Source: Luteipulveratus mongoliensis (lineage in GTDB: Bacteria > Actinomycetota > Actinomycetes > Actinomycetales > Dermatophilaceae). Taken from it: a stretch of DNA of 64,000 bases. A program made the translations under genes and the position numbers. The notes beneath the pieces are model-generated. The model was not told the DNA's origin. It did no database searches and was given only the letters and a program-made list of their open reading frames with translations. Location of the stretch: the NCBI RefSeq assembly GCF_001190945.1, contig NZ_CP011112.1, positions 3,782,001 through 3,846,000 on the forward strand. Direction: 5' to 3'. Of the stretch, positions 43,780 to 51,169 are shown piece after piece; the stretch's first letter is position 1; every line of letters begins with the position of its first letter.

Positions 43780-44528
43780 GCGTCGTCGCTGCACTCCTGC
43801 TCGCGATCGGGCTGGGCGACCTGGCCCGCAGCCGACGACCGCACGGCGTCCGCATCCCGATAGCCATCGCGCTCGCGACGCTCGTCGCCGTGGCTCTGCT
43901 CGCCGACCTCACCTCCTGGGCCGATCTTGGGCTGCTCGTGGTGGCGGCCGCGACGGCCATCGCCTGGATCACCCTCTCCTCCAAGGCACTTCGCCAGCGA
44001 CGCGGTGAGTTGTGGCCGCTCGCCGCACTCGGCGCCGGGCTGCTCGCCCTGCTGGTGCTGGCCGGCGCGGGCTCGACCGCCGACGGTGCGCTCGGCCGCT
44101 GGATGCGCTGGGTCGACCTGGCCCAGCTCCACGAGGTCGAGCCGCAGCGCTTCCTGCTGATCCTCGGGCTGGTCGCGCTCCAGCTGAGCACGGGCAACGA
44201 GCTGGTCCGGCTGGTGCTGACCGCTGTCGGCGCGATCAAGCCGCAGGGTCAGCCGCAGCCCTCGGACCGCCTCAAGGGCGGCCGGCTGCTCGGTCCGATG
44301 GAGCGCGTCTTCATCCTCGGCCTCGGCCTTGCCGGTGAGGTGACGGCGGCGGGTCTGGTCATCGCGGCCAAGGGACTGATCCGGTTCCCCGAGCTCAGCT
44401 CACGTCGTACGGCCGCACAGGAGCGCTCGGAGGTCGACATCGACGAGGTCACCGAGTACTTCTTGGTCGGCAGCTTCGTGAGCTGGCTGCTCGCGATGGC
44501 CGCGCTCGGCCTGGCTGTCCTGTCCTGA
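43776..44528 (+). CDS. membrane protein, partner of SatD
   Basis: A 250-residue protein with seven or so hydrophobic segments and a conserved-looking amphipathic VLTAVGAIKPQGQPQPSDRLKGGRLLGPMERVFILGLGLAGEVTAAGLVIAAKGLIRFPEL region that resembles the DUF3307-associated membrane proteins found beside satD. The acidic EVDIDEVTEYFLVGSFVSW near the end precedes the last helix. Translationally coupled to satD; function unknown. Confidence 0.7.
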   Translation: MSVVAALLLAIGLGDLARSRRPHGVRIPIAIALATLVAVALLADLTSWADLGLLVVAAATAIAWITLSSKALRQRRGELWPLAALGAGLLALLVLAGAGSTADGALGRWMRWVDLAQLHEVEPQRFLLILGLVALQLSTGNELVRLVLTAVGAIKPQGQPQPSDRLKGGRLLGPMERVFILGLGLAGEVTAAGLVIAAKGLIRFPELSSRRTAAQERSEVDIDEVTEYFLVGSFVSWLLAMAALGLAVLS

Positions 44529-44530
44529 GG

Positions 44531-44547
44531 CCGGCACACCGTGCCGG
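44531..44547 (+). terminator. hairpin after the satD operon
   Basis: CCGGCAC-ACC-GTGCCGG, perfect 7-bp stem with a 3-nt loop, 2 bp past the membrane gene stop. No T-tract follows. Confidence 0.5.
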
Positions 44548-44640
44548 ATGCCGTTCCCGACGTGCACCCCATGGGCGAAGTCCTTGATCAGCGTCCAGAG
44601 CGTCTTCATGTCTCGATCGTCCGCCGCGGGAGGCCTCGCC

Positions 44641-44673
44641 AACAGTGGCGTAGATGACACTGTTCGTTAAGAT
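44641..44673 (+). promoter_or_regulatory. promoter and inverted repeat of the AraC/GlxA-type gene
   Basis: AACAGTG (44641-44647) and CACTGTT (44658-44664) are perfect 7-bp arms spaced 10 bp. TAAGAT (44668-44673) is a -10 element 6 nt before the start codon. The repeat covers the -35 region, a typical autoregulation site. Confidence 0.6.
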
Positions 44674-44679
44674 CTAGCC

Positions 44680-45663
44680 ATGACGTCAGGCAGCGGTCCA
44701 GGGACGGTCTCCGTCCTCGCGTACGACGGCATGACGGCCTTCGAGGCCGGCATCGTCATCGAGGTCTTCGGGTTGCACTGGTCGGACCTCGATCTGCCTT
44801 GGTACGACCTGAGGGTCTGCGCCGAGGGCGACGCACCTCTGCGGGTCCTCGGCGGAGCAACACTGAGCACGCCGTACGGCCTGGCCGACTTCGCGGCCGC
44901 TGACACCGTGGTCGTCCCGAGCGTCAAAGACCCGTCCGGGCCGGTGTCCGATGACCTGATCGCGGCGCTGCAGTCCGCTCACGCCCGAGGCGCGCGGCTG
45001 GTGTCGATCTGCTCCGGTGCGTTCGCCCTGGCCGCAGCCGGGCTGCTCGACGGGCGGCGCGCGACCACCCACTGGCGCTACGCCGACCAGCTGCAGTGCC
45101 GCTACCCGGATGTCCTCGTCGACCCGGACCCGCTCTACGTGGAGGACGACAACGTCCTGACCAGTGCTGGCTGCGCCGCCGGGCTCGACCTCGCGCTGCA
45201 CATCGTGCGATCTGACCTGGGTGCCTCGGTCGCCAACGCCGTCGCACGCCGCATGGTCGTCTCACCGCACCGCCCCGGCGGCCAGTCGCAGTACATCGAG
45301 GCTCCGATGGCGGTCGACCCTGAGGACGAGCGGCTCGCGGCGAGCCTGGCCTGGGCGCAGGAGCACCTCGACCAGCCCATCCGACTGGGCGACCTGGCCG
45401 CTCGCGCGGCGATGTCCTCGCGGACCTACCAGCGCAAGTTCTCGGCCGCGACCGGCACCAGCCCGGCGCAGTGGCTGATCGAGCGACGGGTCCAACGTGC
45501 CGTGGAGCTCCTGGAGACCACCGACTTGCCGATCGAATACGTCGGCGCGGCAACGGGATTCGCGACTCCGGCGACGATGCGCCACCACTTCACGGCACGT
45601 GTCGGTACGAGCCCGTCGGCCTACCGTCGGACCTTCAAAGCCGAGCCGATCAGGCGTCGATGA
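44680..45663 (+). CDS. GlxA-family AraC transcriptional regulator (DJ-1/PfpI plus AraC HTH)
   Basis: A 327-residue regulator. Residues about 10-190 form a DJ-1/PfpI-like domain with the nucleophile-elbow Cys in SICSGAFALAAAGLLDGRRATTHW and the following TSAGCAAGLDLALH. Residues about 220-320 hold two AraC helix-turn-helix units (RLGDLAARAAMSSRTYQRKFSAATGTSPAQW and EYVGAATGFATPATMRHHFTARVGTSPSAYRR). No recognisable target operon is adjacent. Its 3' end overlaps the rnj gene by 14 bp. Confidence 0.9.
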   Translation: MTSGSGPGTVSVLAYDGMTAFEAGIVIEVFGLHWSDLDLPWYDLRVCAEGDAPLRVLGGATLSTPYGLADFAAADTVVVPSVKDPSGPVSDDLIAALQSAHARGARLVSICSGAFALAAAGLLDGRRATTHWRYADQLQCRYPDVLVDPDPLYVEDDNVLTSAGCAAGLDLALHIVRSDLGASVANAVARRMVVSPHRPGGQSQYIEAPMAVDPEDERLAASLAWAQEHLDQPIRLGDLAARAAMSSRTYQRKFSAATGTSPAQWLIERRVQRAVELLETTDLPIEYVGAATGFATPATMRHHFTARVGTSPSAYRRTFKAEPIRRR

Positions 45664-47332
45664 CGATCGGGATGATCATCGGGCGTCGCCGGAGCTTGCT
45701 GCCGACAAAGCCACCGACGGTGCGACGGATCACCTGCTGCAGCTGGTGTGAGTCGCGGATGCCCTTGGCCCGAGCTTCCTCGAGCGCCTCCTCGAGCTTG
45801 GGCAGCACCCGTTCGAAGACCTGCTCGTCCTCGGCAAAACCGCGGGTCTGGATCTCAGGACCAGCCGCAATCTTGCCGGTGGCCGCGTCCCGCACCACGA
45901 TGATCGTCACAAAGCCCTCGTCGCGCAGGATGCGCCGGTCCTTCAGCAGCTCCTCGTCGGTGGCGCCCACCAGGGAGCCGTCGACGTAGATGTAGCCACA
46001 CGGCACCGAGCCGGTGATGGCTGCCTTGCCGTTGACCAGGTCGACGACCACACCGTCCTCGGCCAGCACGACGTTCTTGCGCGGCACACCGGTCTGCACG
46101 GCCAGGTCGGCGTTGGCCACGAGGTGACGCCACTCGCCGTGGATCGGCATGACGTTCTTGGGCTTGACGATGTTGTAGCAGTAGAGCAGCTCGCCTGCGC
46201 TGGCGTGACCCGAGACGTGCACCAAGGCGTTGCCCTTGTGCACGACCTTGGCGCCGAGCCGCATCAGGCCGTTCATCACGCGGTAGACGGCGTTCTCGTT
46301 GCCCGGGATGAGCGAGCTGGCCATCAGGACGGTGTCGCCCTCGCCCACGTCGATCTTGTGGTCACGGTTGGCCATCCGGGACAGCGCCGCCATCGGCTCG
46401 CCCTGCGAACCGGTGCAGATCAGCACGATCTGGTCATCGCGCAGGTCGTCGAGCTTCTTGAGGTCGACCAGGACTCCGTCGGGCACCCGCAGGTAGCCGA
46501 GGTCGGTGGCGATGCCCATGTTGCGCACCATCGACCGGCCGACCATGGCGACCTTGCGGTCGTAGAGCTCGGCGGCGTCCAGCACCTGCTGGACGCGATG
46601 CACGTGCGAGGAGAAGCAGGCGACGATGATGCGCCGGTCCGCAGTCTCGAAGACGCGCTCGATCGCGGGCGTGATGTCGCGCTCCGGCGTGGTGAAGCCC
46701 GGGACCTCAGCATTGGTCGAGTCGGTGAGGAACAGGTCGACGCCCTCCTCGCCCACGCGGGCGAAGGCGCGCAGGTCGGTGATCCGTCCGTCCAGCGGCA
46801 GCTGATCCATCTTGAAGTCGCCGGTGCACAGCAAGGTGCCACCCGGCGTACGGATGAACACGGCGAGCGCGTCAGGGATCGAGTGGTTGACCGCGATGAA
46901 CTCGCAGTCGAACGGCCCGATCTTCTCGCGCTGCCCCTCCTTGACCGACATCGTGTACGGCTTGATGCGGTGCTCCTTGAGCTTCGCCTCGATGAGGGCG
47001 AGCGTCAGCGTCGAGCCGATCAGCGGGATGTCCCGCTTCATGCGCAGCAGGTAGGGCACTGCGCCGATGTGGTCCTCGTGACCGTGCGTCAGCACGATCC
47101 CGTCGATGTCATTGAGCCGATCGGCGATGTACTCGAAGTCCGGCAGGATCAGGTCGACACCGGGGTGGTCCTCGGGGAAGAGGACGCCGCAGTCGACGAT
47201 CAGCAGGCGGCCGTCGTACTCGATGACCGTCATGTTGCGCCCGACCTCGCCCAGACCACCGAGGGCGACAACTCGGACGCCGCCCTTCGGGAGTGCGGGC
47301 GGCGGGCCGAGCTCGGGGTGGGGATGACTCAC
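45650..47332 (-). CDS. rnj: ribonuclease J
   Basis: A 560-residue metallo-beta-lactamase/beta-CASP ribonuclease with 5'-exonuclease and endonuclease activity in RNA maturation and decay. Zinc-site motif HGHEDHIGAVPYL, beta-CASP STNAEVPGFTTPE, ICTGSQGEPMAALSRM and HVSGHASAGEL are intact, followed by the C-terminal domain. It overlaps dapA by 4 bp, the conserved actinobacterial dapA-rnj order. Confidence 0.96.
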   Translation of the reverse strand: MSHPHPELGPPPALPKGGVRVVALGGLGEVGRNMTVIEYDGRLLIVDCGVLFPEDHPGVDLILPDFEYIADRLNDIDGIVLTHGHEDHIGAVPYLLRMKRDIPLIGSTLTLALIEAKLKEHRIKPYTMSVKEGQREKIGPFDCEFIAVNHSIPDALAVFIRTPGGTLLCTGDFKMDQLPLDGRITDLRAFARVGEEGVDLFLTDSTNAEVPGFTTPERDITPAIERVFETADRRIIVACFSSHVHRVQQVLDAAELYDRKVAMVGRSMVRNMGIATDLGYLRVPDGVLVDLKKLDDLRDDQIVLICTGSQGEPMAALSRMANRDHKIDVGEGDTVLMASSLIPGNENAVYRVMNGLMRLGAKVVHKGNALVHVSGHASAGELLYCYNIVKPKNVMPIHGEWRHLVANADLAVQTGVPRKNVVLAEDGVVVDLVNGKAAITGSVPCGYIYVDGSLVGATDEELLKDRRILRDEGFVTIIVVRDAATGKIAAGPEIQTRGFAEDEQVFERVLPKLEEALEEARAKGIRDSHQLQQVIRRTVGGFVGSKLRRRPMIIPIVIDA

Positions 47333-48216
47333 ATCAGTCCTGACTTGGTCAGTGCGTCGCGCAGCAAGGCGCGGTGCTCCTCGGGTGCCGGGAGCAGCGG
47401 CAGGCGGCAGAAGTCGGAGTCGATCACTCCGAGCAGCTTGAGGGCGGCCTTCGCCTGGATGGCGCCCTGGCTCGTGTCCATGATCGCATCGACGATGGGG
47501 ATCAGTCGGGTGTGGATCTCGCGGGCGCGTGGCAGGTCACCGCGGTCCATGGCGGCCACCATCTCGGCGTACTCGGCACCGGCGACATGGCCGACGACCG
47601 AGACCACGCCGATGGCGCCCTGCGCCAGGTGCGCGAGGTTGACCACGTCGTCGCCGGAGAACCACAGGAGGTCGGTCTCGGCGATCAGCCGGCTGGCCTC
47701 GAAGAAGTCGCCCTTGGCGTCCTTCACGGCCTTCAGCTGGTCGATCTCCGCGAGCCGGCGGATCGTGTCGGTCGCCAGGGCGGTGCCGGTGCGGCCGGGG
47801 ATGTCGTACGCCATCGCCGGCAGGTCGGTCGCGGTCGCCACCGTGCGGAAGTGCTCGACGATGCCGTCCTGGGTGGGCTTGTTGTAGTAGGGCGTCACGA
47901 TGAGGACAGCATCAGCGCCGAGCTCGGCCATCCGCTTGGCGACGCGCGTCGAGTGGGCGGTGTCGTTGGTGCCCACACCCGCCGTGACCTTGACGCGACC
48001 GCCGACGGCGTCCACCACCGCCTTGACGGTGGCGAAGTTCTCCTCGTCGGTGGTGGTCGCGGACTCGCCAGTTGTCCCGTTGACGACCAGGCCGTCATGG
48101 CCACGATCGGCCAGGTGGGCAGCGAGCTTGCTGATGCCGTCGAGGTCCAAGGAACCGTCGTCGTGCATCGGGGTCACCATGGCCGTCAGCACGCGGCCGA
48201 AAGGAGAGCTCGTCAT
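47329..48216 (-). CDS. dapA: 4-hydroxy-tetrahydrodipicolinate synthase
   Basis: A 295-residue class I aldolase for lysine/diaminopimelate synthesis. Key motifs are VNGTTGESATT near residues 44-54, the active-site Tyr in YYNKPTQDG, the YDIPGRTG loop and the Schiff-base Lys in LKAVKDAKG. First gene of dapA-rnj. Its upstream region holds a long hairpin and a CRP-like palindrome. Confidence 0.96.
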   Translation of the reverse strand: MTSSPFGRVLTAMVTPMHDDGSLDLDGISKLAAHLADRGHDGLVVNGTTGESATTTDEENFATVKAVVDAVGGRVKVTAGVGTNDTAHSTRVAKRMAELGADAVLIVTPYYNKPTQDGIVEHFRTVATATDLPAMAYDIPGRTGTALATDTIRRLAEIDQLKAVKDAKGDFFEASRLIAETDLLWFSGDDVVNLAHLAQGAIGVVSVVGHVAGAEYAEMVAAMDRGDLPRAREIHTRLIPIVDAIMDTSQGAIQAKAALKLLGVIDSDFCRLPLLPAPEEHRALLRDALTKSGLM

Positions 48217-48282
48217 GGCTCACCAGGCTAGTCGCTGAGCGCAGCGAGCGAACCGGCGGCTCACAGGGTGGAGACAAATAAT

Positions 48283-48326
48283 GATCGCGTCGCCACCCGC
48301 TCGGGGGTCCGGGTGGCGACGCGATC
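48283..48326 (-). terminator. perfect 16-bp-stem hairpin in the dapA leader (terminator/attenuator candidate)
   Basis: GATCGCGTCGCCACCC (48283-48298) and its exact complement (48311-48326) flank a 12-nt loop. Reading toward dapA the stem is followed by ATTATTTGT, the most T-rich stretch in the area, which is the orientation of an intrinsic terminator 67 bp before the dapA start. There is no gene on that strand upstream, so it could end a short leader RNA. Confidence 0.6.
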
Positions 48327-48363
48327 AGGGGTTACATCGGGCCTGCTCAGGATTCGTTACGAG

Positions 48364-48393
48364 CGCCCAATGTGATCTGGATCACATTGGGCG
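48364..48393. promoter_or_regulatory. 30-bp perfect palindrome with CRP/GlxR-type core
   Basis: The core TGTGATCTGGATCACA matches the CRP/GlxR consensus TGTGAN6TCACA. Symmetry continues outward to 14-bp arms (48364-48377 and 48380-48393) about a central TG. It lies 75 bp before the thyA start and 148 bp before the dapA start, so it may serve either gene. Confidence 0.75.
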
Positions 48394-48467
48394 AATATAG
48401 CACCACTCTCGCACCGTTCGAGTGGGGTACTCCGCAGTGTCGGGCCTCGCTGCTAGCGTCACTGAGC

Positions 48468-49262
48468 GTGAAGCAGTATCTCGACCTGCTCGACCGCGTC
48501 CTCACCGAAGGCACCCGCAAGGACGACCGCACGGGCACCGGCACGCTGTCCGTGTTCGGTCATCAGATGCGGTTCCCGCTGTCCGACGGCTTTCCGGTCA
48601 CCACCACCAAGAAGCTCCACCTGCGCTCGATCTTCGGCGAGCTGCTGTGGTTCCTGCGTGGCGACACCAACATCGCCTGGCTGCACGAGCGCAAGATCTC
48701 GATCTGGGACGAGTGGGCCGACGAGAACGGCGACCTCGGCCCGGTCTACGGCCACCAGTGGCGTTCCTGGCCGACGCCGGACGGTCGCTCGATCGACCAG
48801 CTCGCCCGGGTGATCGACTCGATCCGCACCAACCCCGACTCACGCCGCCACATCGTCTCGGCCTGGAACGTCGCGGACGTCGAGGACATGGCGCTGCCGC
48901 CGTGCCACACGATGTTCCAGTTCTACGTGGCCAACGGGCGCCTCTCGTGCCAGCTCTACCAGCGATCGGGTGACGTGTTCCTGGGCGTGCCGTTCAACAT
49001 CGCCTCGTACGCGCTGCTCACCTCGATGGTCGCGCAGGTCACCGGGCTCGAGCCAGGCGACTTCGTGCACACGATCGGGGACGCCCACCTCTATCTCAAC
49101 CATGTCGACCAGGCGCGGCTGCAGCTCAGTCGCGAGCCCAAGCCGCTCCCCCGGCTGGTGCTCAACCGGGACATCAAGGACATCGACGCCTTCGAGCTCG
49201 AGGACATCTCGCTCGAGGGCTATGTCGCCGACCCGAGCATCAAGGCTCCGATCGCCGTATGA
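48468..49262 (+). CDS. thyA: thymidylate synthase
   Basis: A 264-residue ThyA, the same length as the E. coli enzyme when started at the GTG at 48468 ([15 protein letters not shown]...). It makes dTMP from dUMP with methylene-tetrahydrofolate. Catalytic Cys 146 lies in [12 protein letters not shown], with [20 protein letters not shown] and the [12 protein letters not shown] substrate segment. A TAGCGT hexamer 8 nt upstream suggests leaderless expression. It overlaps the DHFR-Nudix gene by 4 bp. Confidence 0.95.
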
Positions 49263-50194
49263 GCTCGGGCTCCTCGCACATCACGCTCATCGCGGCGATG
49301 TCTCGCAATCGCGTCATCGGCAAGGACGGCGGCATGCCGTGGCATCTCCCCGAGGACCTGAAGTACTTCAAGCGCACGACCATGGGCCACCCGATGATCA
49401 TGGGCCGCAAGACTTTTGACTCGATGGGTGCACTCCCTGGCCGCCGCTCGATCATCGTGACGCGGCAAGCCGACTGGTCCGCTGACGGCGTTGAGACCGC
49501 CACCTCACTCGATCACGCGCTGGCCCTGGTCGACGGCCAGGACGTCTTCGTGGTCGGTGGTGCGCAGATCTACGAACAGGCGTTGCCCTTCGCCGACCGC
49601 GTCCTGCTGACCGAGATCGATCGCGATGTCGAGGGCGACACCTCCTTCCCCGTGCTCGATGCCGTATGGCGCGAGGCAGCTCGCGAGGAGCGCGAGGGTT
49701 TTGCCTGGGTCACCTATGAGCGGACTCCGCCGCGGGCGACGTACGACCTCGGCGAACGCGTTGGCGCGGGTGCGGTTCAGCGCATGGGCGCCGGCGCAGC
49801 AGTCATGCGCGATGGGCGGCTGCTGTTGACCCGTCGGTCGGACAACGGCTTGTGGTGCCTGCCCGGCGGCGGCGTCGAGGCAGGCGAGCGCTGGAGCGAG
49901 ACCGCCGTGCGCGAGGTGCGGGAGGAGACCGGGCTGGAGGTCCGCGTCACGAGCCTTCTCGGCGCCTGCACCGACCCCGATCGGGTCGTGGTCTACCCCG
50001 ACGGCGAGCGCGTGCAGATCTACGACGTCAGCTTTCGCGCAGAGGTTGTGGCAGGCGAGGCAGGGCCGACCGATGAGGTCAGTGAGGTCGGCTGGTTCGG
50101 GAGGGCCGACATCGCTCGGATCCCGGTTCTCCCTCTGCACCGGCACCTGATCGACGCGGCGTTTGCGCCCCAGGACCCACCAATCTGGTCCTAG
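49259..50194 (+). CDS. dihydrofolate reductase fused to a Nudix hydrolase domain
   Basis: A 311-residue two-domain protein. Residues 6-155 are a complete DHFR ([27 protein letters not shown] with the catalytic Asp 33; [24 protein letters not shown]). After a roughly 15-residue linker, residues about 172-305 form a Nudix hydrolase with a canonical box (Gly 204, Glu 210, Arg 218-Glu 219, Glu 222-Glu 223, Gly 225). It is translationally coupled to thyA, so DHFR regenerates the tetrahydrofolate that ThyA consumes. The Nudix part may hydrolyse a folate precursor such as dihydroneopterin triphosphate, or clean up nucleotides; this is inference. No frameshift or stop separates the domains. Confidence 0.9.
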
Positions 50195-51169
50195 GCCAAC
50201 CGAGCCCGGACCAGGGCGGCGCTGCCTTCGACCGTGCTCGACCAGGTGATGCCACAGGTACTTCAGCTCCTGCAGTGTCTGCACCTCGTCCCCGTACCGC
50301 GACCACTCAGCCGGATCCCGTAGGACCGCCTGCACCGCGCGTCCGACGAGCTCGGCGTCCAGCTGCTGCTCCCTTCGCGCGAGGCGCTCATGTGCGTCCT
50401 GCGCAAGTTCCGGTGAAAGGGACGTCCGGAACTCCGGGTCCAGTGCGGTCGGCTCCAGCTGATAGCCGGGGTGCCACTCGAGCGGGACGTCGTATCGACT
50501 GCTGAGCCTCTCGAGATGGCTCGCCACCGGTGAGTGCTGGAACGACGGGTCGACGACCACAGCCACCACGTCGGTCGCCAGGTCGATCGGGCTGTGGATC
50601 TGTGCCTCGATGTAGCGATCGAGCCGGCCGCTCCCGTCGTGCTGCCCGGCAACCTCAGGCATCTCATCCCGCTGTGCCGCCGCGAGCACCGCGCCGAGCT
50701 CATCCCACACTCCTACGGCTGTCGGCTCGGTGGCGCTGTCGCCCCAGGTGTACGTCGTCCGTTCCAGCATGTGCGGACCCAGCCGCAGGTGACATGACCC
50801 GAACCTCGGGCAGGCACCCTCGGCATAGCCCACGAGATCCAGACCGCCGTAGCGCGGCCGCTCGCTCGGGTCAGCACGGTCGTACGCACCCGCGAACATC
50901 GTGTGTTCCCAACGAGTTCGGGCACCCTCGATCACAGCGTCGAGGCCGCCTGCAGAAATGCCGGTCTCGAACTGTGTGCGATAGACACCGTCGGCCGCCA
51001 ACGACTCGGCTGCCGTACGACCGTCCCGCGATGGCCGGTCAGGGTGAAAGTTCACCGTCAGTACGGCGTGCTCCCGAGCCCGTCTCGTGACCACGCGATC
51101 CAGGTCAGCGGCCTGGTCTCGAGCAAGGTCGCGAACGTGCTCGATGGCACGCTCTGACGGTCGACGCAT
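50191..51169 (-). CDS. DUF3626 domain protein, 3' end unresolved
   Basis: The coding signal is clear from 51169 (MRRPSERAIEHVRDLARDQ) through AVLTVNFHPDR, YRTQFETGISAGGLDAVIEG, RPRYGGLDLVGYAEGACPRFGSCHLRL and LQELKYLWHHLV, all typical of DUF3626. Function of the family is not known. The frame has no stop until it has crossed almost 700 bp of the convergent DHFR-Nudix gene, which is implausible. An adjacent frame stops at 50191-50193, sharing CTAG with the convergent stop, so a frameshift near 50225-50262 is likely. The span given assumes that, hence its length is not a multiple of three. An AGGAG better spaced for an out-of-frame ATG upstream adds doubt to the start. Confidence 0.55.

Follow-up and report, generated by a model that had tools for sequence, protein, structure and literature searches.

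Directly behind thyA, the window (the whole 64-kb stretch of DNA analysed here) carries a gene in which dihydrofolate reductase (DHFR) is joined to a Nudix hydrolase. Two questions arise: is this union genuine and how did it come about, and what could a Nudix enzyme do beside DHFR? The gene (49259-50194, plus strand) has a frame that is open throughout, with no stop, and encodes a single protein of 311 aa. Since both Pfam domains are recognized in this frame (Table 1), the original prediction of DHFR and Nudix in one continuous protein is borne out. So is the canonical Nudix box, which conforms to GX5EX7REUXEEXGU. An Asp within PWHLPEDL fills the active-site acid position of DHFR, a role that we take this residue to play. 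The fusion gene is the sole DHFR_1 match in the 5.42-Mb genome, across which 23 Nudix matches were counted.

Table 1. Features of the thyA-DHFR-Nudix locus (window coordinates).
Feature	Positions	Strand	Basis
CRP-type palindrome TGTGATCTGGATCACA	48371..48386	+	within a perfect inverted repeat of 14+14 nt (48364-48393); upstream of thyA by 97 bp
thyA, thymidylate synthase, 264 aa from GTG 48468	48468..49262	+	PF00303, E 2e-125; NCBIfam NF002497 (thymidylate synthase), 473 bits (cut-off 327)
DHFR domain (residues 1-160)	49259..49738	+	Pfam DHFR_1 (PF00186), residues 8-146, E 4e-52, 176.4 bits (gathering cut-off 25)
Linker (about residues 161-173)	49739..49777	+	alignment of 16 C-type fusions; pLDDT 57 for block 161-170
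C-terminal Nudix hydrolase domain	49778..50191	+	Pfam NUDIX (PF00293), residues 175-299, E 9e-22, 77.9 bits (gathering cut-off 21.1); box; AF2 Nudix fold

The start codon of thyA was picked by eye in an open frame that begins at 48372. The two genes are probably translationally coupled, because the ATG of the fusion (49259-49261) overlaps the thyA stop codon TGA (49260-49262) as ATGA. Of the proposal that the fusion is translated with thyA, the overlap of start and stop is thus confirmed, and the coupling itself is probable. The upstream neighbours, dapA and the gene for RNase J, both lie on the minus strand; downstream come a DUF3626 gene, again on the minus strand, and a gene for an MFS transporter. 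Between the divergent genes dapA and thyA there is also an inverted repeat, perfect over 18+18 nt around a loop of 10 nt (48282-48327), which resembles a terminator or attenuator.

The survey of relatives that the original prediction called for revealed the DHFR-Nudix order (hereafter the C-type fusion) in 16 of the 186 genomes of the window's GTDB family, across eight genera; two of the carriers are Metallococcus carri (L054) and Leekyejoonella antrihumi (L055). This count refers to the matches listed with the whole-protein query, 14 of which were one full-length match, while G029 and G077 gave two pieces in one open frame. When the Nudix domain alone served as query, the same 16 genomes came first with at least 53% identity, followed by separate genes with at most 47%. 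In all 16 loci thyA precedes the fusion. The fusion is therefore not confined to this genome, and an assembly artefact, a frameshift or chance can be ruled out as its origin, since 16 genomes have the same architecture. In the alignment of the 16 proteins, the linkers of G029 and G077 are extended by about 26 and 46 aa, respectively. At the loci of these two genomes there are also additional, separate Nudix ORFs, at a distance of about 4 kb from the fusion (L170, 1342-1911; L171, 11249-11959).

The family also has the opposite fusion (N-type), in which the Nudix domain is placed at the N-terminus of DHFR, likewise directly behind thyA, as seen in G001, G002, G021, and G026. G001 and G002 are both other members of the window's genus examined. 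With the G001 protein (318 aa) as query, one-piece near-full-length matches were obtained in 47 of the 186 family genomes (seven genera); three further genomes outside these 47 (G010, G150, and G160) gave partial or two-piece matches. Overall, fused DHFR is present in 63 of the 186 genomes, with three more partial. We read 30 of the 47 N-type loci, each of which has thyA upstream, bringing the fusions read to 46 (16 C-type and 30 N-type). The N-type Nudix domain presumably resembles CDD cd04683.

A tree of 80 Nudix domains placed the fused N-type domains together with the separate N-type genes (support 99) and grouped the fused C-type domains (support 96). Each type had a long branch of its own, and paralogues from the window genome fell between the two; the tree was made by a quick method, its long branches were flagged, and its deep nodes are weak. 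In the DHFR tree, the 30 N-type fusion domains formed one group (support 95), and the 16 C-type DHFRs fell in another (support 91), which also took in two DHFRs without a Nudix partner, from Dermacoccus abyssi (G011) and Segeticoccus (G193). Two distantly related Nudix subfamilies were thus joined to DHFR behind thyA in independent events. The DHFR of D. abyssi (L174) groups with the C-type fusion DHFRs, yet has no Nudix domain, which suggests either loss of that domain or a pre-fusion state.

The ThyA tree, which has few strong branches, mixes the two kinds of fusion: G000 (C-type) groups with G001 and G002 (N-type) with a support of 92. At the nucleotide level, positions 44007-49262 of the window align with G001 in a single run of 83.5% identity that stops at the thyA stop codon. 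Past this point only the DHFR part aligns (49283-49722, 68%) and the Nudix part does not, before the alignment resumes in the DUF3626 gene (50238-51052, 71%). G002 gave the same pattern. Because homology to G001 runs to the thyA stop and then covers the DHFR part only, the exchange at the thyA locus involved entire DHFR alleles together with the Nudix domain attached to each.

Beyond the family, no full-length fusion was found among the matches listed, either in 22 genomes of the order with the C-type query or in a 396-genome sample of the order (34 family members) with the N-type query; full-length matches rank first in these lists. The latter sample contained six full-length N-type fusions, all from the family, and separate N-type Nudix genes were frequent among the matches listed; six such loci had neither thyA nor DHFR within about 1.5 kb. 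In a 396-genome sample of the phylum (four family members), the only full-length match to the C-type query among those listed came from the window genome. A contig search limited to close relatives (best 80 of 84) returned two fusions, both of the family. In phages (1679 matching records) and plasmids (the 5000 best records), query coverage never reached 80%, two phage places with 77-78% coverage had no Nudix domain on inspection, and a pattern scan of viral contigs detected no relative of the fusion.

DHFR loci were also scanned for Nudix ORFs with a home-made Nudix profile. All 46 fusion loci gave one, and none was detected at 39 unfused DHFR loci, comprising 33 from the family (flanks of about 1.5 kb, two shorter) and six from other Actinomycetota (up to 5 kb). 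Among 80 further loci, seven had a Nudix ORF, namely two fusions and five loci retrieved through their Nudix match, and the 73 DHFR loci of other bacteria had none (flanks up to 5 kb, some shorter), which rules out a general DHFR-Nudix neighbourhood. Because of these results at the 39 unfused and 73 other loci, the link is seen as a fusion only and in one family only, with no operonic intermediate. Going by titles and abstract openings, none of the papers listed in our literature searches describes a DHFR-Nudix fusion, and in the portion of text available for the Nudix survey PMC5389931 the words dihydrofolate, DHFR, and thymidylate do not occur.

The palindrome TGTGATCTGGATCACA, which we take to agree with the CRP consensus, is the only TGTGAN6TCACA site in the window. 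An exact motif of this type was present at 13 of the 16 C-type loci (one mismatch at one more) and at four of the 30 N-type loci (one mismatch at three more), four of the latter having less than 400 bp of upstream sequence. Among unfused loci it occurred exactly at one of 31, with one mismatch at one more; G032 was left out of this count, as the stretch taken there is not a true upstream region. None of six outgroup loci had the motif. Kinship accounts for part of this distribution.

The full Nudix box is retained in all 16 C-type fusions. All 30 N-type fusions read have the EXXEEXG core, so that the EXXEE core is present in all 46; the box lacks its first Glu (GX5E) in 16 of these 30. Mean pairwise identity was 65.7% for Nudix and 66.5% for DHFR among the C-type fusions (120 pairs), and 63.2% and 70.0%, respectively, among the N-type fusions (435 pairs). 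An AF2 model of the full window protein had a mean pLDDT of 88.6 and a pTM of 0.67, with the linker and the termini least certain; the Nudix domain alone reached 87.5 and 0.80. The top structural match of this domain was the Aquifex Ap4A hydrolase 3i7u (Z 19.3, rmsd 1.8, 131 residues aligned), followed by MutT1 (Z 18.7, rmsd 1.7, 127 aligned), CDP-Chase (Z 17.5, rmsd 2.5, 130 aligned), and MutT2 (Z 16.8, rmsd 1.9, 121 aligned), where matches with Z within 1 of each other count as tied. In the model, such matches fix the Nudix fold and not the substrate. With its box intact, the domain does not look catalytically inactive, and we infer that it is an active pyrophosphohydrolase.

None of the NCBIfam models listed for the Nudix domain reached its cut-off: 32.6 bits against 103 for NudB (NF006961, dihydroneopterin-triphosphate diphosphatase), 43.5 against 95 for NudI (NF012016, pyrimidine nucleoside triphosphatase), 34.6 against 475 for MutT1 (NF052459, 8-oxo-(d)GTP phosphatase), and 29.5 against 97.9 for MutT (TIGR00586, 8-oxo-dGTP diphosphatase). 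Elsewhere, the window genome encodes a MutT1-like protein (215.8 bits, below the same MutT1 cut-off) and a separate NAD(+) diphosphatase that passes its own model (166.4 bits, cut-off 158). A strong trimeric-dUTPase match was found in 22 of the 26 genomes searched, including the window genome, and dUTP feeding as an essential role was rejected for this reason. Four fusion-bearing genomes (G002, G006, G079, and G080) have no strong match of this kind, which is present in close relatives, and may represent draft gaps or real loss. They have only the weak dUTPase match common to most other genomes (about 194 aa in most), presumably Dcd.

Separate close copies of the N-type Nudix domain (at least 46% identity over about 140 residues or more) occurred in 11 genomes, all unfused, among the matches listed. 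For the C-type (E up to 3e-24), the matches listed gave 29 genomes, of which 27 are unfused, one is C-fused (G207), and one is N-fused (G105). About 111 family genomes have an unfused DHFR, a number obtained by subtraction, 33 of them having been read. A Fisher test of fused against separate copies gave p of about 1e-4; it rests on the estimate of 111 and ignores kinship, and we gave it no weight.

Taken together, we tentatively favour, at somewhat under an even chance, a role of the Nudix domain in house-cleaning by pyrophosphohydrolysis, directed at a wrong or damaged nucleotide from the thymidylate cycle, over cleavage of dihydroneopterin triphosphate. DHFR would regenerate tetrahydrofolate from the dihydrofolate made by ThyA, and the fused domain, as an active pyrophosphohydrolase, would clean up for this ThyA-DHFR pathway. 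It would split a wrong, excess or damaged NTP-type compound, e.g., dUTP or a dNTP that is oxidised or has a modified pyrimidine, and so keep such compounds from DNA and from poisoning ThyA or DHFR. Because DHFR was united twice, at one locus, with distant and apparently active Nudix domains, a pyrophosphohydrolase is probably useful there. The complete box of the C-type domain and its conservation, which equals that of DHFR, also favour this role. The nearest solved folds are mostly nucleotide pyrophosphohydrolases, and we infer a nucleotide as the class of substrate; there is a precedent in a thiamin-pathway gene, whose fused Nudix domain turned out to have pyrophosphatase activity (PMC4921024, Table 4). 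Dispensable cleaning also fits better than an essential step, because presence of the fusions is patchy, alleles were exchanged, and unfused relatives have few close separate copies. Against nucleotide cleaning stands that the Nudix superfamily is functionally plastic, so that the substrate cannot be read from fold matches. The restriction of the link to fusions within one family, as seen at the 73 and 39 loci scanned, also counts against it. Substrates of the dUTP and oxidised-dGTP type would moreover be redundant, because the genome has the trimeric-dUTPase match and the MutT1-like protein, and the N-type Nudix domains are less conserved than their DHFRs, with the initial Glu of the box missing from 16 of the 30 read.

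The other substrate put forward in the original prediction would make the domain the missing dihydroneopterin-triphosphate pyrophosphatase (the FolQ/NudB role), attached to the enzyme that ends the folate pathway. According to the part of PMC1971073 available to us, most bacteria have no assigned enzyme for this step, and FolQ belongs to the Nudix enzymes. The partner DHFR is a folate enzyme, and no gene in 13 genomes reached the NudB cut-off, a weak argument as this narrow model passes in just one of 14 controls. Nevertheless, we consider this role unlikely: the domain falls far short of the NudB model itself, many of the roughly 111 unfused genomes would need another enzyme given the few close copies, and a beneficial but dispensable pattern lowers the case for folate synthesis. 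Nor did the home-made Nudix profile find any Nudix ORF in folE loci of about 3.5 kb from eight genomes (the second folE of G020 left out), which rules out membership in a folate cluster; in the window genome, about 84 kb separate folE from the nearest Nudix match. G020 (Leekyejoonella) has a second GTP cyclohydrolase I match (G020:C85:168189-168701) on the same contig as its fusion. Unlikelier still is a broader version, in which both fusions mark the missing actinobacterial enzyme and unrelated Nudix proteins were recruited separately and attached to DHFR; a CRP-type switch would then couple folate synthesis, through its second and its final enzyme, to the demand for thymidylate. It is improbable that the domain removes damaged or unwanted DHFR cofactor (NADPH or derivatives) or another NDP-X compound. 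NADPH is the cofactor of DHFR, there are known cases of Nudix domains fused to enzymes of cofactor pathways (the thiamin case; NMN adenylyltransferase-Nudix models also match weakly), and the fold matches include NudC and an ADP-ribose pyrophosphatase, but the genome already has its separate NAD(+) diphosphatase. Least probable is a mainly structural or regulatory part (oligomer interface, ligand sensing), or near-neutral joining amid many Nudix genes. The longer linkers of G029 and G077, the Nudix domain lost or never gained in D. abyssi, the incomplete box in half of the N-type fusions read, and the 23 Nudix matches as raw material would agree with it; the EXXEE core kept by all 46 fusions read, the occurrence of two separate events at a single locus, and a C-type Nudix domain conserved to the same degree as DHFR argue against it.

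The link to folate or thymidylate metabolism claimed in the original prediction is likely, given the recurrence, the second fusion at the thyA locus, and the intact box; the substrates that it named are candidates. That two distant Nudix subfamilies were each fused, in separate events, to one partner at one locus is good evidence of a shared function. Through these fusions a Nudix activity would be connected with the ThyA-DHFR cycle, which is a classic drug target, and the two forms allow a comparison. Should the substrate be dihydroneopterin triphosphate, the fusions would close a gap of long standing in folate synthesis; if it is a nucleotide, pool cleaning would be built into thymidylate synthesis.

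Among known systems, FolQ/NudB have the Nudix fold and box and a folate-linked context in common with the window domain, which differs by failing the NudB cut-off, by being fused to DHFR and linked to thyA, and by the lack of a Nudix ORF near folE. MutT1, MutT2, and NudI-type enzymes, with the same box motif and nucleotide substrates, are among the closest solved folds; they are 24-29% identical to the window domain and are not fused to DHFR. Protists possess a bifunctional DHFR-thymidylate synthase, in which DHFR is likewise joined to a partner from the thymidylate cycle; here the partner is a Nudix domain, and ThyA is encoded by a separate, overlapping gene. In Tnr3-type fusions, the partner of the Nudix domain is thiamin pyrophosphokinase. 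The thiamin fusion of this type (PMC4921024, Table 4) likewise carries a Nudix cleaning domain on a vitamin-pathway enzyme; it differs in pathway and partner, and its function is established.
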